Origin: a virus
Strand: one strand, 5' to 3'
IMG/VR virus record: IMGVR_UViG_3300025108_000070
Coordinates: 1-53,146 of that record
Length of the DNA: 53,146 nucleotides
This document shows, piece by piece, positions 10,931 through 33,388 of the stretch (position 1 is the first letter of the stretch; each line of letters opens with the position of its first letter). The notes below the pieces were generated by a model that ran no database searches, had not been told where the DNA came from, and worked only from the letters and a program-made list of their open reading frames with translations. A program made the translations under genes and the position numbers.

Positions 10931-12388
10931 ATGGCACAGGGAGCAGAAGTATTAGCAGTATTAAACTCTATCTTTGAAAACAGAAGACAAGAGACAAGAG
11001 ATGATAGAGCTTTTGAATTGGATACTCTTAAATTTAGAGAAAGCCAAAAAATAGCTAAACAAGAATTAGCTTTTAAAAGTCAAGCTCAAAGCCTTGCAAT
11101 GCAAGAATTTGCTCTAAAGAAAAAAGCAGCATTTAGCAATGAAATAAAAGAAATACAAAAACCTCTTATAGCTGGTAGAAATTCAAGACTAGATTCTATA
11201 TTTAAAAGTCTTATATTGCCTGAATTAACAAACGAGGATAATGCTATTATAGAAATATCTGGTACTGGAGACAAGGCATCTACTACATATAGTTTAGAAA
11301 ATTTTAACAAACTTTATGTAAATAAATACGGATTTACTAAAGAACAATCTTCTGAATTATTTGGTCAATTAACAGGCTATCATCAAAATGAAACTAATTC
11401 GCAATTAATGGTTGATTATATGGAATCTATGATAAGATACAAAGGAGAATTGCCTCCAATGTTTGACGAAGTATTAGAAATGAATATGCAAGTTAAATTA
11501 TTAGACAAAGAACATTCTGATATGCAATTAGGCGATTATAAATTTAATGAATTAGCTCAATATTTGAATCAAGAAGATGTTGATGAATTAGTAGATATTG
11601 CAGAAGAAAAAGAAAAAGAATTAAAAGAAGAAGCGAATTATGTTAGCGATGATATAAATGTTAACAATGAAACAAAAGAATTATTAGATGCATATACTCA
11701 AAATTTAGGAATTAAATTAGATAAAGGTCCTGGAAGTGGAAATACTGGTAATTGGGTTTTAAATATGGATAATTTAAATTTTGATAAAAGCAATTGGGGA
11801 GAAATAGATAAGGGAATGACTTTTGGTGAAAAAGAAGCTATATTTGAAACTAGAATGAATGAAGTTAATAATGCTATATTGCAACAACAAGGCGGTATAA
11901 AAGATATTGTGGACTATAGAAATAATTTAGAAAATGATGCAAAATTAGGTGGACAAATACAATTAGATAAATTTAATCAAAGCTCCAAAGCGAAAGCGAT
12001 AGATGATGCTATAGAAAGATTAAGACATAATACACAAATATTACAAAGCGAACATTCAATGTTATCCGAACAAGAAGAATTATACGAATCTAAAAGACGT
12101 GGTGAAAATTTTGATAAGTTCTTAGAATTTGGTGACAAAACAGACTATTATTTAGGCTCTATAGTAAATATGTGGGGCGGTGCTACTGGAAATAAATATG
12201 AAGGAAAGCTTGGCTCAATCCCAGGCTTGCCAAGATACAATCCAGATACTGAAGTATTTAGATATGACAATGAACCAGATAAAAGAACTGCCGTTGGAGA
12301 TATAATGTATGGCGGGAAAAAAATGACTAATTTTCTTACGGATTGGTATGAAGATGTCACAGACTATCAAGAAAAGAAAAATAAATAA
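10931..12388 (+). CDS. Coiled-coil internal virion/ejection protein
   Basis: A 485-residue, mostly helical protein that follows the preceding stop codon directly. Residues 20-75 are a Gln/Lys/Glu-rich helix. The stretches around 215-235 and 300-390 also look coiled-coil. The last 70 residues are less helical and Gly/Tyr-rich. No enzymatic motif was seen. Its place between the gp14-like protein and the two giants suggests an internal core or ejectosome part. Confidence 0.5.
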   Translation: MAQGAEVLAVLNSIFENRRQETRDDRAFELDTLKFRESQKIAKQELAFKSQAQSLAMQEFALKKKAAFSNEIKEIQKPLIAGRNSRLDSIFKSLILPELTNEDNAIIEISGTGDKASTTYSLENFNKLYVNKYGFTKEQSSELFGQLTGYHQNETNSQLMVDYMESMIRYKGELPPMFDEVLEMNMQVKLLDKEHSDMQLGDYKFNELAQYLNQEDVDELVDIAEEKEKELKEEANYVSDDINVNNETKELLDAYTQNLGIKLDKGPGSGNTGNWVLNMDNLNFDKSNWGEIDKGMTFGEKEAIFETRMNEVNNAILQQQGGIKDIVDYRNNLENDAKLGGQIQLDKFNQSSKAKAIDDAIERLRHNTQILQSEHSMLSEQEELYESKRRGENFDKFLEFGDKTDYYLGSIVNMWGGATGNKYEGKLGSIPGLPRYNPDTEVFRYDNEPDKRTAVGDIMYGGKKMTNFLTDWYEDVTDYQEKKNK

Positions 12389-12394: not shown

Positions 12395-15300
12395 ATGCCT
12401 ACTTTAGAAGAAATACTAAAAAAGCGATTTGAAAGCAATGTAGCTGGTGTTAGTCAAAACACTAGAAATATTGTGCAATCTGATAATACAGCTCAATCTA
12501 ATACAAACCCACAAAATCGTGGAATGAATTTTTATTCTCAATCTCAACCAGCTCAAATAAAAGAAAAATCTATGTATCAAGGTTTAGGTGCAGGTATGTG
12601 GGACTTTACAAGAGAATTTGGTGAAGGTTTATTTGATACAGCTACTTTTGGAGCAGTTAGTGCGCTTTCAGATTGGGAACCAGAAGACGATAAAGTATCT
12701 GAAGCTGCGAAATGGGGTGGAGATATTGGTACCGCAGCTGGTTTCTTAATACCTTTTGGAGCAGGTAAAGCAGCTATTAGTAAAACTGTTCAAGCTGTTT
12801 CTAAAGCTAGTGGTGTAAAAATAGGTAAAAATATTGCAGACGATGTTTTTAAACAAAGTGATGATTTAGGTATTGCCTTTGCTAAGAAAAATCTTGATGA
12901 AGGCGCAAGTGTTGTTGCTGATGATGTTACAAAATTAGGTATTGCTGGAGCTTTTAAAAAACACGTTTTAGATGAAAAATTAATTAAACCTTTAGCTGGT
13001 TTTGATGATGCTTTAGCTGATGCAACAAAACGAAAAGCATTTTGGGAACAAGTTGATGATGAGGGAATGACTATTTTAAGAGAATTTGCTGAAGCAAAAG
13101 GTTTTACTGTTACTGAAAAAGCCGCTAATCAAATAAATAGCATTGTAGTAAATTCAATAGCAAAAGGTGGAGGTAGACCTGTTTCTAATTTAGCTGGGTT
13201 GGTTGCTAAGAAATTAGGAGATGGTAAAAAAGCATCTTTTTATTCTCACATGTTTGAAGAAGCTATGGTTTTTGCAGCAGTTGACAATGTATTGCATGGG
13301 ATAGACGCTGCAGCTGGAGAACACGATTGGGACCCACTTTCTACTACTACTCATGCATTAGCGTTAGGACACGCTTTAGGAGCTGTTAGATTTATACCTG
13401 GTGGTATCAAAGGTGGTACTATGGGTATTTTTAATTTAAAAGGCGTAGACAAAGTAAGAGCAATAATGAAAGGAACTAGCGCTAAAGGATATAATTTAGG
13501 CACAGATGCTGGTCAACAAGCTGTTGGTAGACAATTTAGCGTATTAGGAGGTATAAATAGCACCGAATTAGGGGGAGTAGAATTGAGTAGAATTGTTTCT
13601 AGCTATTTAACAAGAGGTGGAGCAAAACCTGGACAAAAAATTAGTAAACAACATATTGAAAGATTAAGAAAATTAGGTTTAGACGAACCAGACCCAGTAA
13701 GTATTTTGAATAAATTAGATAACGGGACTAAAGAACAAAAAAAAGCGGCAGCTGAGTTAATGAGAGATGTAATACAAAACGTTCACGGACAAGCTAGAAA
13801 TCAATGGAAATCAGAATTTAAAAAAGCATTAAAGCAAGATTGGTTAGGTGGAGGAGAAGCTGGTATAGGTAGTATGCCTCGTATGCTTATTGGTGGAATT
13901 ACTATGGCTGGAGGTCCTGGAATATTTATGGATGAAAATTTAACAATGGGAGATAAAGCTAGAGCGTTGTTAATTGGTGCATTCTTATTAAAACATGGAA
14001 AAGAATTAACTTATAAAGATTACAATACAAAAACTTGGGAAAGATATGAAGGAACTTTTATGGGTGGTCGTAAACCTATGGGTTCTTTTAGTGAAAGATT
14101 TAGAGATGCTGATGTTTTAGTTAGAGCCTTAGGTGGTAAAATGGAAAGCAAAAACAATTTAATGTGGGGTGCTTTGCAGTATCAAGTATATAATGATGCT
14201 AGACATGATAGACACATGAATCAGAATAGTGAAGGATATAGTAATCCTGAAGTTTTAGATGGTCTTAAAAAATTATGGGAATTTAAATCTAATGAAAAAG
14301 CCGATGATATGTTTAGAGTAGATTTAGAATCAGAAACTTCTCAAAGAACAATAGAAAAAAACAAAAGAGGTCCTCAGGTAGAAGGAGAACTTGGTTGGAA
14401 ATTGCTTTATCAAAGAATGGCTACAGACTCTAAATTTGATTCTATAGTAGGAGAAGGAAAAAGACCTAAAGATTGGAGCGAACTTACTGTAGGACAAAAA
14501 AAGGTTTATATAGAAAAAATGAAAGAAATGAATTTTAAGCCTGGTATGAGAGGAATTGTAAAAATGAATAAATTGTATCATTCAGCAAATCATGATTTAT
14601 TCGACCTGGTTAAAAGCAATTTAACAGATAACGTTAAAGAAATTGCTAATATTTTAAATAATGAAGGTAAAGTTCCTGATAAATTATGGGAATTTGATAG
14701 CGAAACAAAAACATATACTTTTAGAAAGATAGAAATTAGTGAAGTAATTGGTAAATTAAACGAAGTGCAACAATGGCAAGTTATTCAATATAACCACATG
14801 ATTAATGCTATAGCAAAACATGGACCGCATAAAATAGCTAAAGAAAAAATTAAATTCAATGACAACACTATGCCAGGTAAAGAAGCTTGGGATAGCTTTG
14901 CTAAAAAAACTATTTTAGCTAAACAACAAAGTAATAAAGATTTTGGTATAGGAAAAGAATCTCAATTTGAATATTCAGATATGTGGTTTCAAAGCGCTTT
15001 TAATTATCATGAATTTTATAGAGTAAATGAAGTTTCTATGAAAGAATTGGATAGATTTGTTGAAAAAAATCCTGAAATAATAGCTCTTTTAAGAACTACT
15101 GGTTCTGATATGGCTGATGCTTCTATTGCTTTAAAAATAAAAATTAAAGAAGCTAAAAACGATAAAAACGAATCAGCAAAAGATATGGAAAGTAATTTAA
15201 ATGATTTCTTGAAAGCTGTAAGGTTGACACAAAGAAGTGCTGGAACCTTTAGTGCTGGAGCAGTAAAAGAACTTACTATGAAAGATGCTAGAAAAATTAT

Positions 15301-18300
15301 GAAATCTTTAGAAAATCATAAAGAACCTATTTTAGCTTTTAAAAATTATAATGATAAATATATGGCTAAACAAAGTAGAGAAGCTGCTTTAAATTCCAAA
15401 AAGAATGAATTATTAGATGAAACTTTAGTTCTAGATAGTGAAGGTAAAAAACAGCCCTTAACTGATGAAGATTTTAGAATAATTGAAATGTTAGAAGCTG
15501 AAAATATTATTTTACCTGGAACATTTACAATAAGAAGTTGGGCTAGAGAACTTTTTGATATTTCAGATGCATTGAGCAAAAAAGGAACTCCATTAGAATT
15601 TAAAGATAACACAGAATTTTTGAAAATATTAAAAGAAAATGGAGCAGATGCAAAAACTATAGAATCTGTAGAAAATTTATTAAAACTTGAATCTTTTGCA
15701 GGCTCTCCAAAAGCTATTCAAGATGTTATAAAAGTATACGAAAATAGTATTAAAAGATATATGCGTAACGAAACTAATGGTACAGGTATTTTAGAAAATT
15801 CACCTGGTGAAAAAATAGCATTAACTGAAATTCAAATTAGAGAATTAGTTGACAATATTAATAATTTAGAAAACGGAGGACAATATACTTCTGAAAAACT
15901 AATGCTAGAAGCGCTCAGAAAAGAATTTTTAGAATCTGGTAGAGATTGGAGTGCTTTTGAAAATGAAGCTAAGGCTAAAAAATACATATTATCAGCTCTT
16001 ACCAGTGGAAATTTAAAAAGTAAAGATGCAGTAGACGTTGTTGCCTTGTCTATGGAATGGGGAATTTATGATTTTTATGGAAGTAAATTTAAAAAACTAA
16101 ACGAGACGCAATGGCAAGGTGTTTTTGAAAAAATGAAAAAAGCTGTTGATACTCAATGGGTAGATTCTGAATCTGTTATACAAAGAAGATATGAAGAGCT
16201 TTTAGACCAAAAAGGAATAGACCCTGGCGAATATAATAAATTAGATATAGAGCAAGTATTAGCAAATAATAAGTTTGATAAATTTGCCGTTCCTAAAGAT
16301 TCTAGATTAAGTCATAAAGCATATATACAAAACAAATTTATGAACGAATATAATTCAGATATAAATAAATTCACTACAGACTTTATGCAAGATTTTATAA
16401 AAAACAATAAAGATTCTAGAGTAACTGATTCTGAAATGGCGAATACTGTAATCAGTTTATTAGCTGAAAACAATAAAAGCATAAGAATTAGAAAATATAA
16501 ATTTAACGCAGAAAGTCCTAATAAAACAACGCACTCAAATGATACTGTTAGAAAAACTCATGTCATAGATAGAATAGAAAGAATGTTTGGTCAAAATGCT
16601 GAAATTGCAATTTTAGAAGGAACAAATGTTACTTTTGGCGGTATGCGTGCAAGTTTGTTTAATACAGATAATAGAATCCAGGTAGGAGATGCTATGTTGT
16701 CTGGACAATATAGAACTCAAAACGAAAAAATGGATTTGTATGGAGATGGATTTGAATTTGGAAATACTTCTTATTTTATGTATCAATATGGCGGAAATAA
16801 ATACGCTTATTTAATTGAAAAAAGTAACTCTTCTATAAAAACTATGACTACAGAATATAAAAATTATTTAAATAGATTAGAAAATGAAGGAGTCATATCT
16901 AAAGAGGAAAAAGCAGAAAGACTAGAAAAAACTGGATTTATTACAGATGGTACAGAAATAACTTACAAAGAAGGAGCAACATCAGAAACCACTAATAATA
17001 ATTTAAAGAAAATGTTAGACGACTATATTTTAGGTGACATATTAGGAGAATCTGCTTGGTGGGGAGGAATACAAAAAAGCAAAGGAAAGGAAGCTGCTAA
17101 AATATTTAAACGATTAAAACTTTTTGATAACATTTCGGCTAAAAGATTTGATACTAAAACAGTTAATGAGCTATCTGATTTTGTTTCTAAGAATCCTGAT
17201 TGGTTTGGAGGAGATAAACAAGTAGGTAAAGATTTAAAAAGGTTTGCTAATGGAGAATGGAAAGAAGTTATTCTTAGAGATGAAGGGGGTAATAATACTT
17301 GGAGTTACGGAGGTCAAGACTTTGGTATAGCCGACATACATTCTGTTATGAAACAAGAAATACAAAACCTTGCAGATAAAATGTCTGAAATAGAAATAGC
17401 TAAAGCAAATAAAAAAATAAATTCAAACGATGCAGATACTTTATTAAATGGTCTACAAATAGAAATTGACAACCTAACAGGAGATATAGCTAGTGGTAAA
17501 TTAGCAGACGCTTCTAATGTTAATGGAATTACATTTGTAAGCGATAGAGCATTTAAAGCATTGCAAGTATTAGCTGGACACACAGACCCTGGTATAGGTG
17601 GAATTAAACCTATAGTTTTACGTACTGGAGAAAATATGTATGTTAATAAAACAGCTTTTGCAAGAAAAAGTGAATTTGCTCAATTATTTGCTAGTAACAA
17701 AGTTGACTTTATAACATTTACTTCAGCTTCTAAAAAAATAGGAGAATATAAAGTTCCAACATATAGCTCTCAACAATTTTTCAATGGATTAAAACCAGAA
17801 GTTGTATTAAAAGGTGGACTTGATGTTCATACAATTAGACCAGAAGATATGCAAATCGTTAGTGTTAAAGCAGCTAAAAATGAAGCTTCAATAGGTATTA
17901 ATCATGCTAACGAACTAACTACAAGTAGAGATAGTTTTATGAATTATGTTTGGGGTAAAGAAGGAGAAAGTAAGTTAGGAGAATTTAGAAACAAAGGTAG
18001 TTTGTGGACAAATCCAAAAAGATGGATAGAGCAAATTTCTCAATTTAAATTATGGAGAAAATCAAAAAGCCAAGAAAAAGGTTCTCAAGAATTAGATAAT
18101 GCTGATTTTGCATTATTGGATATTATGGCTGAAAACAATATTCATCCAGATTTGCTAAGATTTGAAAAAGATAAAATGTGGTTTACAAATGAAGTTGAAC
18201 CCTTATTAAAACCTAAATTACCTGGTGGTCAAGCAGTTTTAGTGCCAGATATAGATATTTCAGGTAAAAAAACATTAAGAGATACTATTTTAGTTGGAGA

Positions 18301-21082
18301 TAGGATTTACGATGCTGGTGAAATATTATTACCAGATAGTGCAAAAAATACTACTATTGATGCAGACAATACAAGTGTTTGGTTAAGAGTGGATGCTGGA
18401 TACGATAAACTTATAAGATTAAGTGAAGTAAAAGGTATGAAAAAGAATTATAGAAAAATACAAACATTGGGCGAATTAGCTGAAGCGTTGCCAGAAAATT
18501 ACCAAGTAAATATAGTTTCAGAAAGACAGCCACATACAAAAACTTCTAGTATTATGCCTGTTGCGTTAAAAGGCTTTAAAGATAGTAGAGATGGTAATAT
18601 TGTAGCATTAAATCAATCGGATTTAAAAAGAGCGGCAGAAGGTGATTTTGACATTGATACAATCAATTATTTTGCAAGTATGCCACACGATGTTATGTTA
18701 GAATACGCAGTAAATAGAGCTAGGGTTAGAGATTCCGTAGACACTATTGGATTAGGTGAAGGAAATAATATGGCAAGTTGGAAAAATTTAGATATGGACA
18801 ATCCAAATAGCCAAATAAATTATTTAAGACAATTAGAAAAAGCTAAGATACAATTAGGAACTACGATGAAATCTCAAACTAATTTAGCTTGGTTTTTAAA
18901 CAATGCAAGTAAAGCAGATTCTCAGTATAGAAGAATAGTAGACCCTATTTATGGTTCTGATGGCGCAGTTATGGGAAGCAATGGACCAGGTGAATCTGTA
19001 GGAGGTATGTTATTAAAATTACCAGAAAATACATATATACACTTTAAAAAAGGTGCAGATATAAATCAAGTATATCAAGAAATTGCTAATATGAATCAAC
19101 ATATTGTAGATATGGACAATGGATTTAATACTGGTGTATTTAAAGATACAAATAGCGTTTATAATAGAATATTCTTTGGAGAAAATGGATTATTTGAAGT
19201 GTATAAAATGTCAGAATTTAAAGTAACTGAAACAATTAATGGGCAAGTTCGTCAAAGAAGCGATAAAATGCTTGTTAAGCAAGATAGTGAAATAGATATT
19301 AAATATAAAGAAGCTATTACAAATCGTTTAATTAGACCTTACACAGAATTGTTAAATGCTTCTCAATATATATTTGATAAAGGTCAACAACAATCTCCTA
19401 GTCTAAATAATTTAATGAGACAAATTAAAGAATATAATAGTAACATGAGACAAGCTGAATATTTAATAGCTAAAGACTTAGGTGTTAAATACGAAAAAGG
19501 AACAATACTTGCAGGGTTTGGAGACAATGCTCAAATTAAATCTAATAGAACAGGAGAAGGTTTTAGTAGAACTAACATGGTATACGATACTTTATTAGCT
19601 CAAATATTACACGTAGGGGAATTAAAACTAAAAAATACTAGAGATAGCATTGTTGATAAAAGTGAGAATTTAGATGGGAGCTTAGATAAGTTTTTAATGA
19701 GTCAAGATATGATGGGAGATTTTAGTAGAAAAATTAAAAAAGATTCTGAAAAATGGGATTATGCAAATGCCTTAGAAAACAAAATTAGAGAATTGAAAAA
19801 ATTAAGAAACAAGACTATGTCTAATTTTACAAAAACTCAACTTTCTGAAAAAATTAAAAATTTAGAAGAATTTAAAGATAATATTAAAGAAGAAATAGAT
19901 ATTGGTCCAGATATCAGGAATCAAATAGTAGAACACAAAATGAAACAAGCTGAATATGAATATTATAAAGATAATCGTAAAGCAATGGATTCAGATACTA
20001 GAAAGAAAAAAAGAAAATTATTTGAAGAACAAGTTAAAAAAGGTAAAAATGTAGTAGAAGAAATAGGTTACGACCATGAAGTTGTAAGAGCTATGGCTTT
20101 AGTAGAAGGTTTTGGTAAATATACTAATATGAGTTTCTCAGAATTGGGAATGGATAGAACTAATTTTGCAGAATTAAGTAAAGCTGCTAGTGCTACAAGA
20201 CGTGATTTTGGTATTGCATGGAGTGCTTTTAGAAACGGAGAAACAGCACAATTAAGTCACCGTGATGGACAAGCTGGCGAAAAAATAGCTTTTGTAAATG
20301 AAGCACATATATATCAATATTTTACTAATAGAATGAGAGAAGAATCTGTAGGTTTTAATACTATGCAAGAACAAAATATTTATATTGCAAAAATTATGAC
20401 TCCTAAAGTAGATTTTACTAGAGTTATTAAATATAAAGACTTATATTTTCCTACTCCAGAATCTAAAAGAATTGAAAAATACATAAAACTTGGATTAAGA
20501 TATAATTCACAATTTTTTGGAAATCAAATGCAACTTAATTTCTTGAAAGGTATGTCTAAGTCTTATGAGATGTCATTACAGTATTTAACTACTGGGCATC
20601 CAAATTCTTTTGAATCTAATTCAATTTTAGGAGAAAGATTAAAACAGTCAAATGAAGGAGGATTTTATTTTGACCCATTTACTTACGCAGCTAATCACGG
20701 TAAAATAGATTTGATAAACGCTTTAAATCCTAATGCAACTGAATATTCTAGATTAAGCGGCTATCATCAAATGCATAAATTGTTTGGTACTGGATTAATT
20801 AAAGATACAGTTAATATGCACGTAATGAATGCAATACCTGTTGGTATGATAGGAAATGTTGGTAGACATTCTAGGGCAATATCTTTAAATGGACAATCTG
20901 ACTTGCAAAAAATGAATGAAATAGATAATAGTGTATTTATAATGAGCGGTAATCGAGGTTCTGTGTTTGATGTTGGTCAACAACTATATAATTTAAACCC
21001 TTACAAATCAGAACGCTCTAAATATTCTCCTAGTGAATGGACTGCTGAAAAAAATAAAGAAAACAATAAATGGTGTGACTAA
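12395..21082 (+). CDS. Giant ejection protein, candidate single-chain virion RNA polymerase
   Basis: A 2895-residue protein. The N-terminus has Gly/Ala-rich hydrophobic stretches (about 109-128 and 490-520) typical of large ejected phage proteins. Residues 2044-2088 read R-Q-P-H, then SSIMPVALKGF, then GNIVALNQSDLKRAAEGDFDID, with D2084, D2086 and D2088. This copies the order of the beta-prime catalytic barrel (R-P-H-x-S-I ... NADFDGD), and the DFDID form is the one I recall from crAss-like virion RNAP. A Lys-rich block at 1777-1787 (SASKKIGEYK), after IKPIVL near 1737, could be the partner beta-type barrel. A polymerase in an ejection module would enter with the DNA and transcribe early genes. 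Other regions look like a large polyvalent protein. No T7/N4-type polymerase motif was seen. The call is strong but motif-based. Confidence 0.6.
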   Translation: MPTLEEILKKRFESNVAGVSQNTRNIVQSDNTAQSNTNPQNRGMNFYSQSQPAQIKEKSMYQGLGAGMWDFTREFGEGLFDTATFGAVSALSDWEPEDDKVSEAAKWGGDIGTAAGFLIPFGAGKAAISKTVQAVSKASGVKIGKNIADDVFKQSDDLGIAFAKKNLDEGASVVADDVTKLGIAGAFKKHVLDEKLIKPLAGFDDALADATKRKAFWEQVDDEGMTILREFAEAKGFTVTEKAANQINSIVVNSIAKGGGRPVSNLAGLVAKKLGDGKKASFYSHMFEEAMVFAAVDNVLHGIDAAAGEHDWDPLSTTTHALALGHALGAVRFIPGGIKGGTMGIFNLKGVDKVRAIMKGTSAKGYNLGTDAGQQAVGRQFSVLGGINSTELGGVELSRIVSSYLTRGGAKPGQKISKQHIERLRKLGLDEPDPVSILNKLDNGTKEQKKAAAELMRDVIQNVHGQARNQWKSEFKKALKQDWLGGGEAGIGSMPRMLIGGITMAGGPGIFMDENLTMGDKARALLIGAFLLKHGKELTYKDYNTKTWERYEGTFMGGRKPMGSFSERFRDADVLVRALGGKMESKNNLMWGALQYQVYNDARHDRHMNQNSEGYSNPEVLDGLKKLWEFKSNEKADDMFRVDLESETSQRTIEKNKRGPQVEGELGWKLLYQRMATDSKFDSIVGEGKRPKDWSELTVGQKKVYIEKMKEMNFKPGMRGIVKMNKLYHSANHDLFDLVKSNLTDNVKEIANILNNEGKVPDKLWEFDSETKTYTFRKIEISEVIGKLNEVQQWQVIQYNHMINAIAKHGPHKIAKEKIKFNDNTMPGKEAWDSFAKKTILAKQQSNKDFGIGKESQFEYSDMWFQSAFNYHEFYRVNEVSMKELDRFVEKNPEIIALLRTTGSDMADASIALKIKIKEAKNDKNESAKDMESNLNDFLKAVRLTQRSAGTFSAGAVKELTMKDARKIMKSLENHKEPILAFKNYNDKYMAKQSREAALNSKKNELLDETLVLDSEGKKQPLTDEDFRIIEMLEAENIILPGTFTIRSWARELFDISDALSKKGTPLEFKDNTEFLKILKENGADAKTIESVENLLKLESFAGSPKAIQDVIKVYENSIKRYMRNETNGTGILENSPGEKIALTEIQIRELVDNINNLENGGQYTSEKLMLEALRKEFLESGRDWSAFENEAKAKKYILSALTSGNLKSKDAVDVVALSMEWGIYDFYGSKFKKLNETQWQGVFEKMKKAVDTQWVDSESVIQRRYEELLDQKGIDPGEYNKLDIEQVLANNKFDKFAVPKDSRLSHKAYIQNKFMNEYNSDINKFTTDFMQDFIKNNKDSRVTDSEMANTVISLLAENNKSIRIRKYKFNAESPNKTTHSNDTVRKTHVIDRIERMFGQNAEIAILEGTNVTFGGMRASLFNTDNRIQVGDAMLSGQYRTQNEKMDLYGDGFEFGNTSYFMYQYGGNKYAYLIEKSNSSIKTMTTEYKNYLNRLENEGVISKEEKAERLEKTGFITDGTEITYKEGATSETTNNNLKKMLDDYILGDILGESAWWGGIQKSKGKEAAKIFKRLKLFDNISAKRFDTKTVNELSDFVSKNPDWFGGDKQVGKDLKRFANGEWKEVILRDEGGNNTWSYGGQDFGIADIHSVMKQEIQNLADKMSEIEIAKANKKINSNDADTLLNGLQIEIDNLTGDIASGKLADASNVNGITFVSDRAFKALQVLAGHTDPGIGGIKPIVLRTGENMYVNKTAFARKSEFAQLFASNKVDFITFTSASKKIGEYKVPTYSSQQFFNGLKPEVVLKGGLDVHTIRPEDMQIVSVKAAKNEASIGINHANELTTSRDSFMNYVWGKEGESKLGEFRNKGSLWTNPKRWIEQISQFKLWRKSKSQEKGSQELDNADFALLDIMAENNIHPDLLRFEKDKMWFTNEVEPLLKPKLPGGQAVLVPDIDISGKKTLRDTILVGDRIYDAGEILLPDSAKNTTIDADNTSVWLRVDAGYDKLIRLSEVKGMKKNYRKIQTLGELAEALPENYQVNIVSERQPHTKTSSIMPVALKGFKDSRDGNIVALNQSDLKRAAEGDFDIDTINYFASMPHDVMLEYAVNRARVRDSVDTIGLGEGNNMASWKNLDMDNPNSQINYLRQLEKAKIQLGTTMKSQTNLAWFLNNASKADSQYRRIVDPIYGSDGAVMGSNGPGESVGGMLLKLPENTYIHFKKGADINQVYQEIANMNQHIVDMDNGFNTGVFKDTNSVYNRIFFGENGLFEVYKMSEFKVTETINGQVRQRSDKMLVKQDSEIDIKYKEAITNRLIRPYTELLNASQYIFDKGQQQSPSLNNLMRQIKEYNSNMRQAEYLIAKDLGVKYEKGTILAGFGDNAQIKSNRTGEGFSRTNMVYDTLLAQILHVGELKLKNTRDSIVDKSENLDGSLDKFLMSQDMMGDFSRKIKKDSEKWDYANALENKIRELKKLRNKTMSNFTKTQLSEKIKNLEEFKDNIKEEIDIGPDIRNQIVEHKMKQAEYEYYKDNRKAMDSDTRKKKRKLFEEQVKKGKNVVEEIGYDHEVVRAMALVEGFGKYTNMSFSELGMDRTNFAELSKAASATRRDFGIAWSAFRNGETAQLSHRDGQAGEKIAFVNEAHIYQYFTNRMREESVGFNTMQEQNIYIAKIMTPKVDFTRVIKYKDLYFPTPESKRIEKYIKLGLRYNSQFFGNQMQLNFLKGMSKSYEMSLQYLTTGHPNSFESNSILGERLKQSNEGGFYFDPFTYAANHGKIDLINALNPNATEYSRLSGYHQMHKLFGTGLIKDTVNMHVMNAIPVGMIGNVGRHSRAISLNGQSDLQKMNEIDNSVFIMSGNRGSVFDVGQQLYNLNPYKSERSKYSPSEWTAEKNKENNKWCD

Positions 21083-23805
21083 TGGGAAATTGTATACAAA
21101 CTGAACAAGAAAGAATTAATAAAAAAAACTTTTTAGAAATGGCTAAAGAATTTGAAACTCTTCCTGGTATAGAACAATATGGTAATCACGCTACTGGTAT
21201 GTGGAAACGAATTGTTCAAATGACTAAAGAAGCTAGTGAGGGTTATGATACAGTTAAAGGTGCAAAAAATAATGCTCCTACTGTAGAACAATTAAAGCTT
21301 ATGAGAAGAATTATGGATAGAGAAGTTAGGAAACTAACTAAAACTAGAGGCGGATTTGCTAAATGGCTATACCTTCCACAAGAAATATTTGGTGATGTAG
21401 ATTTTGTAGATAAATGGTACGTTGATGTACAGAAATCTAATGAAACATACAAAGGTCATACGCAATATTTTAATACACAGCTTAACAACATGATTACTGA
21501 ATTAACAACAGCTTCTGCTAACGCTGGTGCAAAATTTTCTAAATCTGAAAAAAAATTAAGAAAACATTATGCTAATTACAACAGAGAGAGAGTAAAAGGA
21601 AATCATGATAAAGCAAATGAAATAATGACAAACGAAATAGACCCTTTTATTAAAAGTAAAGAAGGAGAAGTGTTATCTGATTTTCATAAATTAGTTTCTG
21701 GAGGTAAGAAAAATTTTGAACAAAATAGTATAGGTAAAGATATAAATTTGAAAAGAGCTGCTGAAATATATTTAAATAAAGTTCAACCTAAGGCTACTGA
21801 AATTATGGTTCAAGGATTAAGAAACTATAGATGGTCTTTACAAAGAAATAATAGTATCTTAAAAAACTTTGAAAATTATTCTAAACTTACTAATAAAAAT
21901 AATACTGGTGTTTTAGATTCTATTATAGAAAGATTTGAATCAGGAAATTTACAAAAAGATGGATATTTTCCAGTATTAAGTTTTGATGTTATGCCTACAC
22001 TAGCTAGAGCATCAGAAAATATTTTTGCTTATGGAAATGGTAAAAAAAATCAAAGCGATTTTAATAAAGGCTATGATACTATTAAAAATTTAGACAAGAT
22101 AATAAATGAAAATATGTATATAAATAAACATTTAGGTAAAAGAACATTAGATATAGAAGGTCCTATAGATTACAATGTTATACCAATTATAGATTCTTAT
22201 GTTAGAAGTGCAACAAGATTTAATTATGTATCTTACAACAACGGTAAATATATTGATGTTATGAAAAATATAACAGATACATATAGTAAAGGTAAAAAAA
22301 CAGCGTTAGACAAAAAATTAAGCTTTTTAGAGTCTTATGTTTCTGACCACTATAATTTAATAACTGGTGAAAAAGTAAATAATAGTCCTGTAGCAAGTCA
22401 AATTGCTAGAAGTATAACAGCAGTTCAATTTGCTAGTAAACTAGGGTTAAATGTTAGAGGTGCAGCTAGAAACGCTACACAAAGTATGTTTAATTATATA
22501 TGGTTTGGTGCTAACGGAATGAATGAGCATAGAACTTTTAAAAAAGACGCTCAAATGCAAGAAAGATTAACTAACGGATTAGCAAATAATGGTATTTTGT
22601 TTCCAGAAATACAGGAAGTATATGGAAACTTAGCTTTAGATACAGTTTACGATGCTGGTACTGGTACATATAAATTAAAAATAGATAAAAGCATAGGAGA
22701 TAGAATAGGAGATGCTTTATCTAAAGTAGCTGAAAAAAGTGGTACTTTAATGACTTTAGTAGAAAATAAAGTTAATCGTAGATATACTTTTGAATTAGGT
22801 TACGCAATGCAATGGAAACTAGATAATGCAAATCCTAGATTAGAGGCTGAATTTCAACAATCTTTAAAAAGAGATTTAAAAAGAGAAGGTAAAAAAAGAA
22901 CTGTTGAAGAATTAAAAAGACCTGATGCTGAAAGAGATTTTCAGATATTTGAAAAAAATGATGCTACTGAATATCAGTATAGAATGGAAATGTGGAGAAG
23001 AAAACGTGCAGAAAATCATGGAAACAGTACTGTTAATAATCTTCATTACGACTATAGTATTACAGGTAAATCTAAAGTACTAACAACTCCTACAGGTTCG
23101 GTATTAGGACAATTCCAACATTATGGTTTAAACTTTTTTAATATGCAAAGAAAAATTGTAAGAGATGGTAAAGATGCTATGTTATCTGGTGATTGGAATA
23201 GTGCAGCTGGATGGAGAATGTATAGATTAGGTTCTATGTATGCTGTTATTAATGCAATAATTTCTCCTTTAACCAATGCAAACTGGGGAAATTTAGTACA
23301 AAACGACACTTATGAGCGTATACAAAATTATGTTGATGCAGCTTCTAGTGACCCTGAAAAAGCTAAAAAAGCATTCTTTGGTAAAGGTCCAGTATTAGGA
23401 ACTGTAGGTGGTCCAGCTATTGCAGATTTAGTTAGCTTAGGAAATCTATCTGGTCTGTATGAAATGAAAGAAGGAACTTGGGCTTCTTATCTTGCTGGTT
23501 ATCAGGATTGGACCGATACATCAGGAACAAGAAAAATGCAAGAACTTGTAAGAATTTTGAATACTCAGTTACATAGAAGTATATATTCTACTTTGCCTAA
23601 ATTTAGAGATGGAGTTAATCTTGGTGTTATTACTCAAGGAGAATTAGGATTATTTCCTACTAGTGAAACTAGAGATGCTAAAGAACGTTTACAGAAAATA
23701 CCAGGATTGGGACCTATGATAACTCCTAAAAATAAAGATAAGAAAAAATCTAAAGCTCCTAGAAACTTCAATGAAGAAGTCTTAAAAGCTTTAGATAATT
23801 TTTAG
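21082..23805 (+). CDS. Large ejection/internal virion protein, companion of the giant
   Basis: A 907-residue protein whose ATG overlaps the giant's TAA (TAATG), so the two are translationally coupled and may once have been one chain. It is mostly helical and basic. A block ASKLGLNVRGAARNATQSMF (about 452-471) resembles a motif near the C-terminus of large polyvalent and ejection proteins. Later hydrophobic stretches near 715-735 and 770-790 may enter membrane. It ends with a Lys-rich segment, then LLKALDNF-like helix. The stop is flush with the convergent gene at 23806. It is probably a virion protein delivered with the DNA. Confidence 0.55.
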   Translation: MGNCIQTEQERINKKNFLEMAKEFETLPGIEQYGNHATGMWKRIVQMTKEASEGYDTVKGAKNNAPTVEQLKLMRRIMDREVRKLTKTRGGFAKWLYLPQEIFGDVDFVDKWYVDVQKSNETYKGHTQYFNTQLNNMITELTTASANAGAKFSKSEKKLRKHYANYNRERVKGNHDKANEIMTNEIDPFIKSKEGEVLSDFHKLVSGGKKNFEQNSIGKDINLKRAAEIYLNKVQPKATEIMVQGLRNYRWSLQRNNSILKNFENYSKLTNKNNTGVLDSIIERFESGNLQKDGYFPVLSFDVMPTLARASENIFAYGNGKKNQSDFNKGYDTIKNLDKIINENMYINKHLGKRTLDIEGPIDYNVIPIIDSYVRSATRFNYVSYNNGKYIDVMKNITDTYSKGKKTALDKKLSFLESYVSDHYNLITGEKVNNSPVASQIARSITAVQFASKLGLNVRGAARNATQSMFNYIWFGANGMNEHRTFKKDAQMQERLTNGLANNGILFPEIQEVYGNLALDTVYDAGTGTYKLKIDKSIGDRIGDALSKVAEKSGTLMTLVENKVNRRYTFELGYAMQWKLDNANPRLEAEFQQSLKRDLKREGKKRTVEELKRPDAERDFQIFEKNDATEYQYRMEMWRRKRAENHGNSTVNNLHYDYSITGKSKVLTTPTGSVLGQFQHYGLNFFNMQRKIVRDGKDAMLSGDWNSAAGWRMYRLGSMYAVINAIISPLTNANWGNLVQNDTYERIQNYVDAASSDPEKAKKAFFGKGPVLGTVGGPAIADLVSLGNLSGLYEMKEGTWASYLAGYQDWTDTSGTRKMQELVRILNTQLHRSIYSTLPKFRDGVNLGVITQGELGLFPTSETRDAKERLQKIPGLGPMITPKNKDKKKSKAPRNFNEEVLKALDNF

Positions 23806-24000
23806 TTATAGACTTTTACAAACTTCTGTAACTATTTTTAATTGATTTTTTACTTCTGTAAGTTTTTCTTGTTGTTCTTTTGTTAAACCTGTTTCAAAAT
23901 TATCCATTTCTATTTGTTTTGCAAATGCTTTCATGTCTTTTAGTGTTTTCCAAGCATAATTTCTTGTTGACCATCTAGTCGGTTTTTTAGTTTTTATCAT
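23806..24000 (-). CDS. Small basic hypothetical protein
   Basis: A 64-residue protein, last in the leftward operon, overlapping the resolvase gene by 4 nt. A basic N-terminus (KTKKPTRWSTRNYAWKTL) is followed by two Gln/Glu/Lys helices. No family is recognised. Its stop codon abuts the stop of the rightward 907-residue gene with no spacer, so a terminator would have to lie within coding DNA. Confidence 0.55.
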   Translation of the reverse strand: MIKTKKPTRWSTRNYAWKTLKDMKAFAKQIEMDNFETGLTKEQQEKLTEVKNQLKIVTEVCKSL

Positions 24001-24440
24001 TTTTCCTCCATTAATGCGTACATTCCAATACAGATTGCGTCTGCATTTTTTAATGTAACTTTGTGATTATTACTTGCCCAATCTTGAGCAACTTTCTTAA
24101 AATATCTTTTTCGTTCTGCATAGTCTTTTGGTATCTCTCCTCCAATGAACTGTTGCCATACTTTAGGCAATACATCTACTCTTTCTAGTTTTAATGACGC
24201 TATAATACCTAACCAAACGCCATAATTTTCACCAAAAGTAAAAGCACCTCTTTCGTAAGGTCTAGCCCACACTCTTTCTATGTATACTTTAGGTTTCTTA
24301 CGACCTATAGCATTTCTTATAACTTTAACCATATCTTCAGGTTCCCTGGAAGTAGGACAATTGGTAGTGAATTGGAGGTTCGTTGAGTCGAAGAAAGCAA
24401 CTGCCCCACTCCATCCAGGGTCTATAGTTATAATTTTCAT
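23997..24440 (-). CDS. RuvC-like Holliday-junction resolvase
   Basis: A 147-residue protein with the RNase H-fold resolvase pattern: IITIDPGWSGAVA with Asp7, KVYIERVWA with Glu55, and KNADAICIG with Asp134. These are the metal-binding acids of RuvC-type enzymes. In phages these enzymes resolve recombination and replication branches before packaging. The length is normal for the family. It overlaps the helicase gene by 4 nt and belongs to the replication/recombination set. Confidence 0.8.
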   Translation of the reverse strand: MKIITIDPGWSGAVAFFDSTNLQFTTNCPTSREPEDMVKVIRNAIGRKKPKVYIERVWARPYERGAFTFGENYGVWLGIIASLKLERVDVLPKVWQQFIGGEIPKDYAERKRYFKKVAQDWASNNHKVTLKNADAICIGMYALMEEK

Positions 24441-25789
24441 TTATTCATCATTCTAATTGCTTCATTTCGGTCAAAGTATACGCTACATTTATCTCCATTA
24501 AAGCCCATATTATAAGAGCCTAATTGTCCATATCTAGCTTTTTGACATATTACTTCAATCTCATACCTATCATTGTCTCTATTGTCTACCGCATAAGGAT
24601 AGTATACAAAGAACGCCGCTTCAGCAGTTTGTTCAATTACACCACTTTCCGCAAAGTCTGATAACTTAGGTCTAGGGTCTAATCTTCTTTCAATTTCTCT
24701 ATTTAATTGTGATACTAATATAGCACTACACTTAATTTTCTTACAAATCCACTTATAGTCAAGCATTATATCTTCTATTTCAAACCTTCTGTCCTTATTA
24801 CCTCCATCTGTACGAATAAGTTGGATATAATCATCAAGGACTACATCTGGTTTTTCTTTGCTTATCTCTTTCATGGCATCTGCGAGTGTTTTACAATCAT
24901 CTAACATAATTAAGTTCTTGTATTTTTCACCAAGAGCCTCTTTCTTTAAATTGATTTGTGTAATCTCTTTGCTAATATCAGATGCTTTTCTAATTCGTTC
25001 ATAACTAAACTCTTGAAATTCCATTACTAAAATCTTTTTCATCATTTCAACATTAGTCATCTCACGATTAAATAACATAACTTTCTTACCTTGTTCAAGT
25101 AATCGTTTAACAATATTAATAATCATAGTAGTTTTACCATGTCCTGGTCTACCACCTACAACTGTAATCTCACCTCTAGTCATACCACCAGCTGCTTTAT
25201 CTAGCTGTTCAATACCAAAGGGTATTAAGTTAGTCCCTTCTTTTAATGCTTCTACTGTATTGGTTAATATGTCTTTAGTTTCAACTACTTTACTTGGAGC
25301 AAAATCTTTTAAATCCTGTATAATCTTTTCATGTTGATGTAAGACTTCTACAATATCATCTGTATTTTGTAAAGTTAAGTTATATAATATCTGGGAACTC
25401 TTTACCGCTTTACGTTGTATAAACTTATACCAAATGTTCTTAGCGTAAGTTTCAGCGTTCGCAGTAGTAGGAACTCCATTAGCCATTCCAGTTAAATAAT
25501 ATGTAGTTAAAGTATGGTCTGTGCAATTATCTCTTAAATCTCCGAATACTGTTACCGTATCTATTGGAACATTGTTTTTATAAAGCCTTGAAAACGATTT
25601 CCACAACTCTTGATGCTTAGTGGTATAAAATGCTTTCTCTTCCCTTATAATAGATTTTGCTTTTTCATAGATTTCATCACCTTCTAACAAAATACTTCCC
25701 AATAAAGCTATTTCTGCTTCTTCATTCTTGGGCATAGGTTCCATACTATTTGTCTGTTTAAGTTTTCTTTTATCTGTTATCTCTTTCAT
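24437..25789 (-). CDS. dnaB: Replicative DnaB-like helicase
   Basis: A 450-residue protein. Residues about 19-125 match the DnaB N-terminal helical domain (PMPKNEEAEIALLGSILLEG). The RecA-like ATPase domain starts near 188 (LIPFGIEQLDKAAGG). It has Walker A GRPGHGKTT (213-221), Walker B VVLDDYIQL (about 316-324), and the later SQLNREIERR and L-DFAESGVIEQ-A motifs. It should unwind DNA ahead of the replisome. No primase or loader gene was recognised nearby, so host primase is probably recruited. It overlaps neighbours by 4 nt on both sides. Confidence 0.9.
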   Translation of the reverse strand: MKEITDKRKLKQTNSMEPMPKNEEAEIALLGSILLEGDEIYEKAKSIIREEKAFYTTKHQELWKSFSRLYKNNVPIDTVTVFGDLRDNCTDHTLTTYYLTGMANGVPTTANAETYAKNIWYKFIQRKAVKSSQILYNLTLQNTDDIVEVLHQHEKIIQDLKDFAPSKVVETKDILTNTVEALKEGTNLIPFGIEQLDKAAGGMTRGEITVVGGRPGHGKTTMIINIVKRLLEQGKKVMLFNREMTNVEMMKKILVMEFQEFSYERIRKASDISKEITQINLKKEALGEKYKNLIMLDDCKTLADAMKEISKEKPDVVLDDYIQLIRTDGGNKDRRFEIEDIMLDYKWICKKIKCSAILVSQLNREIERRLDPRPKLSDFAESGVIEQTAEAAFFVYYPYAVDNRDNDRYEIEVICQKARYGQLGSYNMGFNGDKCSVYFDRNEAIRMMNK

Positions 25790-26619
25790 AACACCTCCGA
25801 TTCTGTAAATAAACTAATTTGTCTTTCTTTTGGAATATAGTTTGTAATAACTAACTCATTCTTTTTTTCATCACTATGTAATTGACCAGCATATTTAATA
25901 GGTATTATATCTATAAAATAAAATCTATACATTTGCCATATTTCAGGTCTATCATCATAAGACACCATAAACTTTCCCCCGCCTGCATCAATTTCATCGC
26001 AAACTTCTTTTAAGCCTAAGTGGTCGTCTTCTGTAAATGAATGTATATAGTAATCATTTCTATCTGTAGCTGCAAAGTAAGGAGGGTCTAAATACCACAT
26101 ATCTCCTTTTTTTGGCTCATACTTTTCAATTAACTTTCTAAAATCCATATTTTCAATAAATACATTATTTAGTTTTTTTCTACTTGGTTCTAAATCAGCC
26201 AGAATATCATCATTCCATTTAGCAGCGCTACTAATTGGCAAGAAAGGGCTTTTGTTAAACGCCGTTTTCAATACAAAGAAGTACATTGCCGCTCTTTTAT
26301 AATCTGGTATGTCTACTTTTGAATTACTATGTATTAGTTTTCTATAGTCTTCGTGAAGAGTTCTAGACAATAGTATATGTTTACAATAATGTCTAAACTT
26401 ATCGAAATCCTCCGCTACTGAAATATACAAATTTATTATATCATTATGCAAGTCATTTAATATGTTTACTTGTGCTTTGTCTTTTCTAAAGAACATACTT
26501 CCTCCACCAAGAAATACTTCAATATATCGTTCATGACTATGAAGCTTAGGAACAAGTTGTCTTGATAAACTATATTTACCTCCATAATAAGGGAATATAG
26601 TTGGACAATCATTCTTCAT
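25786..26619 (-). CDS. dam: DNA adenine-N6 methyltransferase, Dam (D12) class
   Basis: A 277-residue protein from the ATG at 26619; an in-frame GTG at 26631 would add 4 residues. It has the AdoMet motif FPYYGGKYSL (about 9-18), then EVFLGGGSMFF (34-44) and the catalytic DPPYF (about 178-182), in the order of Dam/T4 Dam enzymes. It should methylate adenine in a short site, possibly GATC. In a phage this protects against host restriction or marks the phage DNA. It overlaps the helicase gene by 4 nt and the next gene by 11 nt. Confidence 0.88.
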   Translation of the reverse strand: MKNDCPTIFPYYGGKYSLSRQLVPKLHSHERYIEVFLGGGSMFFRKDKAQVNILNDLHNDIINLYISVAEDFDKFRHYCKHILLSRTLHEDYRKLIHSNSKVDIPDYKRAAMYFFVLKTAFNKSPFLPISSAAKWNDDILADLEPSRKKLNNVFIENMDFRKLIEKYEPKKGDMWYLDPPYFAATDRNDYYIHSFTEDDHLGLKEVCDEIDAGGGKFMVSYDDRPEIWQMYRFYFIDIIPIKYAGQLHSDEKKNELVITNYIPKERQISLFTESEVL

Positions 26620-26911
26620 TTTTTGGTCCACTTCGGTATGTAGAGAGATAATGTTCTACTTTTGGTCCGCTACCAAATGTTTTCCAAAATATTAAATCGT
26701 GTGCATTTTCATAATATTTAAACATCCATTTATCTACAACACCACCAGCATAGTCTGGATGATATTCATTATTTAAGCACATATTAGACATCATTTGATG
26801 ATATACAGCTGTATAAAACATTTTATCACTAAGATAATCACCAATTACCCACCAAGGGTCATCTCCATTTTCATATATATCGCATAGTTCTTCAAAATTA
26901 TATCTCTTCAT
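26609..26911 (-). CDS. Hypothetical protein, Trp/Tyr-rich
   Basis: A 100-residue protein with GGGGAC ahead of its ATG. It is rich in Trp, Tyr, Asp and His (for example DDPWWVIGDYLSDKMFYTAVYH). Such aromatic acidic proteins are common in the middle operons of environmental phages. No catalytic motif was seen and no family is recognised. It overlaps both neighbours, so it is part of the operon. Confidence 0.6.
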   Translation of the reverse strand: MKRYNFEELCDIYENGDDPWWVIGDYLSDKMFYTAVYHQMMSNMCLNNEYHPDYAGGVVDKWMFKYYENAHDLIFWKTFGSGPKVEHYLSTYRSGPKNEE

Positions 26912-27254
26912 TTTTGTCCCCTTTTACTTGCTTATATAAATCAATAAATGAATCATTGCTTTCTACGCCAACTGGTAAAACATGAGAACAAAGCCCAGCT
27001 TTCTTAAATCCTTTTCTACGTGCATCAGTCATTCCAACGTGTAAAGCACCTGGACCATTTCCTTCATCATCCATTCCAATAAAGAAAGTATCACCTTCAT
27101 CTGTTTGAAAACAAAGCCCAGTACCTTCTTCTGGATAATCTCTATCCCATTCTTGCCACCAAACATCTGTTATTGTTCTATTTTTTAATAGCATTTGTGC
27201 TGATTGATACCACATTTTAGTTCTATCGTATTTCTTTTGTAAACTTTCTTTCAC
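26898..27254 (-). CDS. Hypothetical protein
   Basis: A 118-residue protein with a GTG start one base after the upstream stop and a strong GGAGGG. The sequence has VWWQEWDRDYPEEGTGLCFQ and a Gly-rich FIGMDDEGNGPGALHVGM segment. No family is recognised. It overlaps the next gene by 14 nt. Confidence 0.6.
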   Translation of the reverse strand: MKESLQKKYDRTKMWYQSAQMLLKNRTITDVWWQEWDRDYPEEGTGLCFQTDEGDTFFIGMDDEGNGPGALHVGMTDARRKGFKKAGLCSHVLPVGVESNDSFIDLYKQVKGDKNEEI

Positions 27255-27452
27255 TTAACCCTCCATATGTTTAAGTCTTAAATGTTCATCTCTTAAGTGA
27301 TTTAATTCAGATATATCATCTTCTATTTCACCTAATCTTGACATAAATTCATCTGTTATACCTTCTGTATCTAAATAATATCCTGTTTCTTCATCAAAAG
27401 AATAATATATATTTACACTTATAGTGTCATCTATTTGTTTTTCTTTTTCCAT
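27255..27452 (-). CDS. Small acidic hypothetical protein
   Basis: A 65-residue protein with AGAGGG upstream. It has a short beta-like N-terminal part (TISVNIYYSFDEETGYYL) and a Glu-rich helix at the end. No family is recognised. Its start overlaps the 50-residue gene at 27427-27579 by 26 nt. Confidence 0.55.
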   Translation of the reverse strand: MEKEKQIDDTISVNIYYSFDEETGYYLDTEGITDEFMSRLGEIEDDISELNHLRDEHLRLKHMEG

Positions 27453-27579
27453 AATCCCTCTTTCTTCTTATTGAGCTTATATTGTTAAAATACATATATT
27501 CAAATCCAAGCTCATCTAGTTTATCTATTAAATTTGCTATTTTTTCTTGCAATTTAAATGCTTTTTCAGCGTCACTCAT
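27427..27579 (-). CDS. Small helical protein (50 aa)
   Basis: An ATG at 27579 with AAGGAG 6 nt upstream opens a 50-codon frame ending in TGA at 27427-27429. The ATG overlaps the upstream stop by 8 nt (ATGAGTGA), the same coupling seen across this operon. The peptide begins MSDAEKAFKLQEKIANLIDK, a good amphipathic helix, and ends with a basic stretch. No function is known. Confidence 0.5.
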   Translation of the reverse strand: MSDAEKAFKLQEKIANLIDKLDELGFEYMYFNNISSIRRKRDYGKRKTNR

Positions 27580-27844
27580 TTCTATGCTCCTTCAATTTAT
27601 CATCAACTTTTTTAACGTTTTGGTAAAGTTCTTGATATTTATTATCATGGAAGATAATATTATTTTTATTCAAGTGTCCCTCGTGTTTAATACTCCAAGT
27701 AGTATCTTGTTTAGTATCTTCTATTTCTTCTTCTGTAGGTATATGGGGCATAGGATACTTGTCTACTCCGTCTTCAAAGTCTTCTGCGTATCTAAGTTTA
27801 TAATCATCCATTTTTTCTATTTCTTTTTTCTTAAAATATCCCAT
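27572..27844 (-). CDS. Hypothetical protein
   Basis: A 90-residue charged protein whose ATG overlaps the preceding TAA by one base (TAATG). It is rich in Lys, Asp and Glu; the middle has YPMPHIPTEEEIEDTKQDT. No domain is recognised. Confidence 0.6.
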   Translation of the reverse strand: MGYFKKKEIEKMDDYKLRYAEDFEDGVDKYPMPHIPTEEEIEDTKQDTTWSIKHEGHLNKNNIIFHDNKYQELYQNVKKVDDKLKEHRNE

Positions 27845-28149
27845 TACATTCTACTCCCTGCTGTAATTTTATCGTATTTATCTTTATTGCCTCCGCATTC
27901 TTCAGCAATTTTCTCACACCAATCAAAGTATGTCATAGGTGCTACTTCATCATTACAAATATTACACCAACGTGGAGTATCATCAACACATTCTGTTACT
28001 TCAAGTGTGTTCATATTAACCCACGCTTTTTCATCTACTTCTTCTGTACCACAATAATCACATACCCACATATCATCCATATCTATTTTTGAAACTCTTT
28101 TTGCATATTCTGAATCAGTTTCTACGTGTGCTTTAATATCTTTACTCAT
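27844..28149 (-). CDS. Small zinc-ribbon-like protein
   Basis: I take the ATG at 28149, with GGAG 6 nt upstream and an 8-nt overlap with the previous stop; an in-frame ATG at 28161 would add 4 residues. The 101-residue protein has WVCDYCGTE (Cys30, Cys33) and PRWCNICNDE (about Cys62, Cys65), the two knuckles of a zinc ribbon. The remainder is acidic. It may bind nucleic acid or protein; no family was identified. Confidence 0.65.
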   Translation of the reverse strand: MSKDIKAHVETDSEYAKRVSKIDMDDMWVCDYCGTEEVDEKAWVNMNTLEVTECVDDTPRWCNICNDEVAPMTYFDWCEKIAEECGGNKDKYDKITAGSRM

Positions 28150-28384
28150 TTGTTTCTCCATCCATAACTCTAAATTGTTCTATCCAACTATCTTTATATT
28201 TTGCTATTACTGATACTCCACAAAATACCCACCAAGCTCTACCGTGTTTTTCTGCAAACTCTTCACTAATTCTATCGTGCTCTTTTGTATAAGCATGTAA
28301 AGTTTTATGTTTGCTAAGTCTTTCTTTAAAGTTGCTTTCAAACTTCAAAGGATTATTATTTTTATCATGTAAACTTAAACTCAT
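28142..28384 (-). CDS. Hypothetical protein
   Basis: An 80-residue protein with a strong AAAGGAG leader, the first gene after structured island A. It contains ISEEFAEKHGRAWWVFCGVSVIAKY. No family is recognised. The hairpin at 28409-28465 ends about 24 nt before its start codon, so the leader RNA may control it. Confidence 0.6.
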   Translation of the reverse strand: MSLSLHDKNNNPLKFESNFKERLSKHKTLHAYTKEHDRISEEFAEKHGRAWWVFCGVSVIAKYKDSWIEQFRVMDGETNE

Positions 28385-30010: not shown

Positions 30011-30210
30011 TGTTCCTCCACTAATGTACCAGCTGACCAACTATGTTTTCCTTTATAATAACTTTCGTTAGTTTTAAAGTGATGACTATCTGGTATACTG
30101 TACACCATTACTTCTGCATTAATACCAACGCTCAATAAAACACCTTCTGTTCCATTTTGATTAAATCTTGCACCTGGTTTTAATGTTCTTATTTCTACTT
30201 TTTTACCCAA
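30007..30210 (-). CDS. Small beta-rich hypothetical protein
   Basis: I choose the TTG at 30210: GAGAGG lies 7 nt upstream and TTGGGTAA gives the 8-nt overlap seen throughout this operon. An upstream in-frame TTG at 30231 lacks a ribosome site. The 67-residue protein reads GKKVEIRTLKPGARFNQNGT and then short strands, like a small SH3-type barrel. No function is assigned. Confidence 0.5.
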   Translation of the reverse strand: MGKKVEIRTLKPGARFNQNGTEGVLLSVGINAEVMVYSIPDSHHFKTNESYYKGKHSWSAGTLVEEQ

Positions 30211-30554: not shown

Positions 30555-30566
30555 AATTCCTCCTTA

Positions 30567-33385: not shown

Positions 33386-33388
33386 TTG

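Follow-up and report, generated by a model that had tools for sequence, protein, structure and literature searches.

The IMG/VR virus record IMGVR_UViG_3300025108_000070 (53,146 bases, classed linear) was analysed over its whole length, and we refer to this stretch as the window. At 12395..21082 on the plus strand it carries a giant open reading frame (ORF), intact over 2,895 codons, whose 2,895-amino-acid product is predicted to be a single-chain two-barrel virion RNA polymerase. Residues 2043-2088 of the product (18521-18658) read ERQPHTKTSSIMPVALKGFKDSRDGNIVALNQSDLKRAAEGDFDID. They contain the putative active-site block R2044-x-P2046 ... D2084, D2086, D2088 (18521..18658, plus strand), in which the R2044 codon lies at 18524-18526 and the DFDID box (D2084/D2086/D2088) at 18644-18658. 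A preliminary description of this DNA had noted an RNA-polymerase-type DFDID catalytic motif in this product. We found the motif in an intact ORF, and it is kept as DxDxD in 63/63 aligned sequences. The coordinates given there for the motif block start with E2043 and not with R2044.

Layout and conservation of the giant protein

The N-terminal region (residues 1-1557; 12395..17065, plus strand) has no known domain and is possibly a packaging or ejection part. It contains conserved Gly/Pro-rich blocks at residues ~60-130 and ~285-345, and a transmembrane scan of the N-terminal part of the protein gave no strong segment. The predicted polymerase core follows at residues 1558-2400 (17066..19594, plus strand). 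Within the core, the first barrel region, a double-psi beta-barrel (DPBB) of the beta type, covers residues ~1700-1840 (17492..17914, plus strand) and includes three invariant lysines, with the codons of K1738 at 17606-17608, K1752 at 17648-17650 and K1780 at 17732-17734. The second barrel region, a DPBB of the beta-prime type, covers residues ~1940-2095 (18212..18679, plus strand). Downstream of the barrels there is a long helix in the model (residues 2137-2169, model residues 580-612, assigned by DSSP; 18803..18901, plus strand), a candidate bridge helix, and a conserved Q2235...D2239 pair (19097..19111, plus strand).

DFDID is the sole DxDxD in the whole protein. A bare DxDxD proves nothing here, since 53% of the shuffled versions of the giant protein contain one. 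R-x-P followed by DxDxD was found in 2.3% of the shuffles and DFD[IG]D in 0.5%. It is the conservation among relatives that places DFDID above chance.

The giant protein alone had no match in Pfam, PHROGs, the PDB sequences or the named-phage collection. When the whole protein was searched against IMG/VR, one contig was recovered (L002, an 82% identical copy), and a search with the active-site stretch only added 12 further divergent contigs. The identity to the divergent contigs was 25-34% over the length of the protein, and residues 1701-1800 and 2051-2100 were kept best. We gathered IMG/VR relatives via the active-site stretch, the 907-amino-acid protein encoded next to the giant ORF, and the divergent homologues of this neighbour. 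ORFs of at least 1,100 amino acids were taken and redundancy was removed; the motif was not required. DxDxD was present at the homologous place in 63 of the 64 non-redundant ORFs. These 63 relatives are giant ORFs, mostly of 2,760-3,120 amino acids. The lone ORF without DxDxD, L227, turned out not to be a family member but a DarB-like/LPD39 polyvalent protein.

The core alignment has 63 rows, the window sequence and 62 relatives, and for most rows the identity to the window is 16-38%. D1629, G1728, K1738, K1752, K1780, P2046, D2084, D2086, D2088 and D2239 are invariant in all 63 rows, and R2044 (58/63), Q2235 (58/63) and G2155 (61/63, in the long helix) are nearly so. Among the relatives, residue 2085 can be Y, F, H or M and residue 2087 can be A, I, V, Y, T, F, L or G, so that the catalytic box appears within the family as DFDID, DYDAD, DHDYD, DMDTD and the canonical DFDGD. 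Three fixed aspartates with drifting residues between them are the pattern expected of a metal site. The ratio of nonsynonymous to synonymous substitution rates (Ka/Ks) between the window and L002 was 0.31 overall, 0.25 in the core and 0.13 in residues 2030-2100. Selection on the giant ORF is purifying and is strongest at the catalytic block.

Two sub-clades deviate around the active site. L107, L112, L116, L157, L160, L161 and L162 have a longer insert before it and boxes of the DADYD/DSDYD type (e.g. QDADYDFDK), and L101, L104, L164 and L169 have P-A-P in place of R-x-P. At the other end of the protein, Cys2894 (21074-21076) lies 1-2 residues from the C-terminus in 47/49 aligned relatives; the remaining tail is variable.

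In the bacterial genome collection we found no relatives of the polymerase core or of the 907-amino-acid protein, and this route gave neither a prophage nor a host. Some family members apparently exist in BFVD/UniProt as unnamed proteins. We did not find the family described in the literature, which was covered mostly without subscription papers and without a comparison to the 23-family set of PMC10770324.

Comparison with crAss-like polymerases

DFDID had been named as the form used by the virion RNA polymerase of crAss-like phages. The phi14:2 virion protein gp077 (KC821624 Phi14:2_gp077, 2,180 amino acids) indeed has YRIPNQGQSSND...GSDFDIDK, at residue 1361. The beta-prime-type layout proposed for the block was likewise recovered, as the same order is present in E. 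coli rpoC (NRAP...NADFDGD) and in phi14:2 (YRIP...GSDFDID).

We aligned 11 Crassvirales sequences and compared the resulting profile with the window family. The crAss alignment has D13, K63, K78, K116, G286, R373, P375 and the three aspartates as invariants. Their order matches that of the window family, where K1738, K1752 and K1780 are the counterparts of K63, K78 and K116; the first aspartate differs, its position D1705 being kept in only 36/63 rows. With 11 window-family sequences, hhalign aligned the two in exact register at P 0.008. The 63-sequence profile matched the crAss-like RNA polymerases with a probability of 95.1% and P 3e-8, and a looser setting with a longer alignment placed both barrels in register over 343 columns (P 9e-9). 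The score was 82.5, compared with at most 16.4 for 40 column-shuffled crAss profiles, and a repeat with full-length rows gave P 6e-8. Each barrel also matched by itself: the first-barrel region alone matched the crAss first barrel at P 2.7e-4, and the piece with the second barrel (residues ~1937-2117) matched the crAss second barrel at P 5.7e-9. The region after the active site had no profile match to crAss (hhalign P 0.47), and unrelated control profiles gave no match. An hmmsearch of the PDB found nothing with the 11-sequence profile or with the deeper one. The known relatives are reached only by profile-profile and fold comparison.

The preliminary description had named a structure prediction with polymerase barrels as a check, and we carried it out in the nearest available form. 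AlphaFold2 modelled residues 1558-2400 (843 residues, 63 sequences) with a predicted local distance difference test score (pLDDT) of 85.6 and a predicted template modelling score (pTM) of 0.86. In a Foldseek search of the PDB with this confidently predicted core, only RNA polymerases were among the 50 matches listed. Rank 1 was 6VR4, the phi14:2 virion RNA polymerase (E 1.2e-10, probability 1.00, 861 columns), and the other 49 were large subunits of Pol I/II/III and archaeal enzymes with E 5e-5 to 1e-3, so that 6VR4 leads the next match by more than 5 orders of magnitude in E. The AlphaFold training set ended on 30 April 2018 (PMC8371605) and 6VR4 was released on 2020-07-29; since the release came after the cut-off, the match is not a recall of that structure. 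Against BFVD, the top two matches were unnamed viral proteins (TM-score 0.76 and 0.67), and the named ones were mostly crAss-like phage proteins, which led, and also giant-virus RNA polymerases.

The window polymerase and the phi14:2/Crassvirales polymerase are alike in their predicted build, with both barrels in one chain and an identical DFDID box. Their residues come in the same order, with three lysines in barrel 1, Gly-Gly before barrel 2, R-x-P and D-x-D-x-D, and in both cases the polymerase gene lies among virion protein genes. The crAss-like enzyme is both the best fold match and a significant profile match over both barrels. However, there is no single-sequence similarity between the two, and the profile match ends after the active site, though Foldseek aligned 861 columns. 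The window protein is ~2,900 amino acids long, its core comes after a 1,550-residue N-terminal region, and the filler residues of DxDxD are much more variable in its family. The genomes differ as well, since that of the window has 53 kb, a P22-like portal, an SU10-like capsid protein and Shine-Dalgarno (SD)-type translation. No window protein matched phi14:2 significantly by BLASTP at a cut-off of E 0.01, and one phmmer match was trivial. The suggestion that this is a separate lineage of virion polymerase is supported by the 63 relatives and by the lack of detectable similarity to phi14:2 hallmark genes. The comparison supports a polymerase family that lies outside Crassvirales and has the crAss-like phage polymerase as its nearest known cousin.

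Function of the giant protein and alternative readings

We consider it very likely that the giant ORF (12395-21082) encodes a virion-borne single-chain DNA-dependent two-barrel RNA polymerase, built like the crAss-like enzyme. The presence of an RNA polymerase fold in the giant protein is close to certain, and an active enzyme is strongly implied. By analogy, the protein is likely packaged in the virion and would probably transcribe early genes. The phi14:2 enzyme is a virion component which is translocated with the DNA and transcribes early genes (PMC7886860), and the virions of crAss001 contain RNA polymerase proteins as cargo, which are thought to unfold as they are ejected (PMC10172136). 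By analogy with these two enzymes, we propose that the giant protein is packaged, ejected and used to transcribe the first genes; the family, the fold, the invariant catalytic residues, the purifying selection and the synteny are computational results.

The two double-psi barrels, which usually belong to separate subunits (beta and beta-prime), would thus lie in one chain (~1700-1840 and ~1940-2095). Asp2084, Asp2086 and Asp2088 would hold the catalytic Mg2+ ions, and Lys1738, Lys1752 and Lys1780 of the first barrel would face the same active site. The polymerase would be made late alongside the tail proteins and then packed in the head. Upon infection it would be ejected ahead of the DNA together with its neighbours, such as the 907-amino-acid protein, and refold in the host. 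There it may transcribe the first phage genes, probably the replication genes on the minus strand, independently of host sigma factors.

Several results weigh against this interpretation. Single-sequence searches reached no known RNA polymerase, and hhalign found no match to single sequences of RpoB, RpoC, YonO or P23-45 gp96 and gp64, single sequences being a weaker test. The AlphaFold2 model depends on the deepened alignment: with 11 sequences it was poor (pLDDT 55.7), and Foldseek on that model found no RNA polymerase of the two-barrel type. The final model superposes loosely on 6VR4 (TM-score 0.41 by query length, root-mean-square deviation 10.3 A), which is expected for a mobile, divergent enzyme, yet it is not a tight match. 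In addition, the window yielded no promoter motif, and a repeated-motif search of the minus-strand block gave no convincing family.

A genuine two-barrel RNA polymerase that stays out of the virion, and that serves middle or late transcription like YonO or the non-virion enzyme of P23-45, is an unlikely alternative. The giant protein has no clear transmembrane segments, and the ORFs searched contained neither a recognisable second phage RNA polymerase nor a sigma factor, both of which would fit such an enzyme. However, the gene is positioned in the tail/structural operon, directly before a DarB-like-related protein in nearly all relatives, and its closest relative by fold is a virion enzyme. 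At 2,760-3,120 amino acids, the proteins are also far larger than YonO (839 amino acids) or P23-45 gp64 (616 amino acids). YonO, from Bacillus phage SPbeta, resembles the window polymerase as a single-chain two-barrel RNA polymerase (PMC5467207), but it has a DNDGD box without R-x-P before it and is not encoded beside tail genes. Its single sequence gave no profile match to the window family, which is a weaker test than a family profile.

The location among structural genes and the wide drift of the residues flanking the aspartates could also point to a degenerate, non-catalytic polymerase fold that is retained as an ejection or structural part. We regard this as very unlikely, since the three aspartates, the three lysines and Pro2046 are unchanged in 63/63 rows at 16-38% identity for most of them, and Ka/Ks falls to 0.13 at the catalytic block against 0.31 overall.

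Slightly more improbable still is a two-barrel polymerase with another product, e.g. a DNA polymerase or primase of the PolD kind for the start of replication. In its favour, the ORFs searched included no recognisable DNA polymerase, and PolD also has the two barrels (PMC10770324). On the other side, all 50 PDB matches listed are RNA polymerases, the search did not extend to some of the smaller ORFs, and the contig is possibly incomplete. Many phages of ~53-kb size also rely on the host DNA polymerase. Lastly, the fold and family evidence refutes both a DFDID that arose by chance in an ordinary ejection or tape-measure protein and a virion polymerase of the N4 type, which has the T7 fold: a DxDxD is easily had at this length, as the 53% of shuffles show, but the conservation, the profile match and the fold all speak against it, and the giant protein matched no T7-type RNA polymerase family in Pfam or PHROGs.

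A virion-borne polymerase of this build can be set beside other known systems. The N4-type virion RNA polymerase is a giant injected polymerase for the first transcripts. It works in a generally similar way, but its T7-like fold is unrelated to the predicted two-barrel fold of the window protein. P23-45 gp96 is a two-barrel RNA polymerase with a DxDxD active site fused to a giant virion protein (PMC10770324). There, the polymerase forms the N-terminal end of a 5,002-amino-acid tape measure, whereas in the window it occupies the C-terminal half of ~2,900 amino acids. The single gp96 and gp64 sequences gave no profile match, and P23-45 was not among the top 50 PDB fold matches. It was proposed that the fusion of virion RNA polymerases to large proteins couples DNA entry with transcription (PMC10770324). 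The large subunits of the cellular RNA polymerases (Pol I/II/III, archaeal) were fold matches, as described above, and RpoC (NRAPTLH...NADFDGD) has the same R-x-P and DxDxD layout. The cellular beta and beta-prime differ from the single chain of the window, and hhalign found no significant match to the single E. coli RpoB and RpoC sequences.

Virion-packaged two-barrel RNA polymerases are experimentally known from few phages, namely the crAss-like and P23-45-like enzymes and the multisubunit enzymes of jumbo phages. The window adds a family of 63 non-redundant relatives, unannotated in Pfam, PHROGs and the named-phage collection and probably outside Bacteroidota. The alignment of single-chain two-barrel polymerases becomes much deeper, which bears on the origin of the beta/beta-prime split, and the question whether such enzymes begin to transcribe as the DNA enters, with no need for host sigma factors, can now be tested directly. 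Tentatively, the family might even represent a third main source or lineage of virion RNA polymerases, with a diversity no smaller than that of the crAss-like enzyme, in a widespread uncultured group of phages with non-Bacteroidota hosts. If so, it could have its own promoter class or a single-strand entry mode, allowing transcription while the DNA is still entering, and the tolerance of its box (DHDYD, DYDAD, DMDTD, DFDGD) could show how a two-barrel active site drifts.

Neighbouring genes and genome

The 907-amino-acid protein (21082..23805, plus strand) overlaps the polymerase stop codon and is a probable co-ejected virion protein. It is better conserved than the polymerase and syntenic, being encoded beside the polymerase gene in 57/63 relatives. 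It had no Pfam or PHROG match and no match to the phi14:2 neighbours gp76 and gp78. Residues 640-736 of its family (97 columns) matched the DarB-like/LPD39 polyvalent protein L227 (hhalign probability 95%), and DarB of phage P1 is an injected protein. A conserved ejection domain around the GQFQHYG motif of the family is possible.

The polymerase gene comes after genes for the tail fibre and structural proteins. Directly before it, in the same operon, there is a 485-amino-acid ORF (10931..12388, plus strand) without a family match in Pfam or PHROGs, and further upstream, also in the same operon, a tail fibre with an S74 endosialidase-type chaperone domain (5287..8505, plus strand; PF13884 E 1.3e-16, PHROG tail families). 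Only 356 of the 1,072 residues of the tail fibre align with its L002 counterpart, at 91% identity, and most flanking genes are 83-97% identical. This divergence (5287-8505) is probably a receptor-binding hot spot. Besides the portal and the capsid protein mentioned above, the genome has its own terminase, and a tRNA search of the window found none.

SD-type ribosome sites had been noted in the window, with the suggestion of a host outside Bacteroidota. SD-like sites are present before 26 of 45 window genes, compared with a 7% background and 0/6 phi14:2 structural genes. Because of these sites, our results also suggest a host outside Bacteroidota, but do not prove it.

On the minus strand, 23997..35493 encodes a DnaB helicase, an adenine methylase, a resolvase, a Sak annealing protein, a protein resembling single-stranded DNA-binding protein (SSB) and a PD-(D/E)XK nuclease. 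The genes of this replication/recombination block are the probable early targets. A DNA polymerase or primase was not recognised in the ORFs searched, which did not include every small ORF, and the contig is possibly incomplete. A gene-poor stretch at 36601-36696 contains two 32-nt near-repeats, 64 nt apart, each with the DnaA-box-like TTATACACA, and is a possible replication origin. DnaA-box-like 9-mers are not enriched across the whole window.

DnaB and the adenine methylase (24437-26631) are 71-96% identical to those of relatives (L008, L004, L005, L012) whose polymerases are only 25-34% identical. In the comparison with L008, the identity is 96% for DnaB and ~25% for the polymerase. Since DnaB and the methylase are far more identical than the polymerases, this suggests that the replication block is modularly exchanged.

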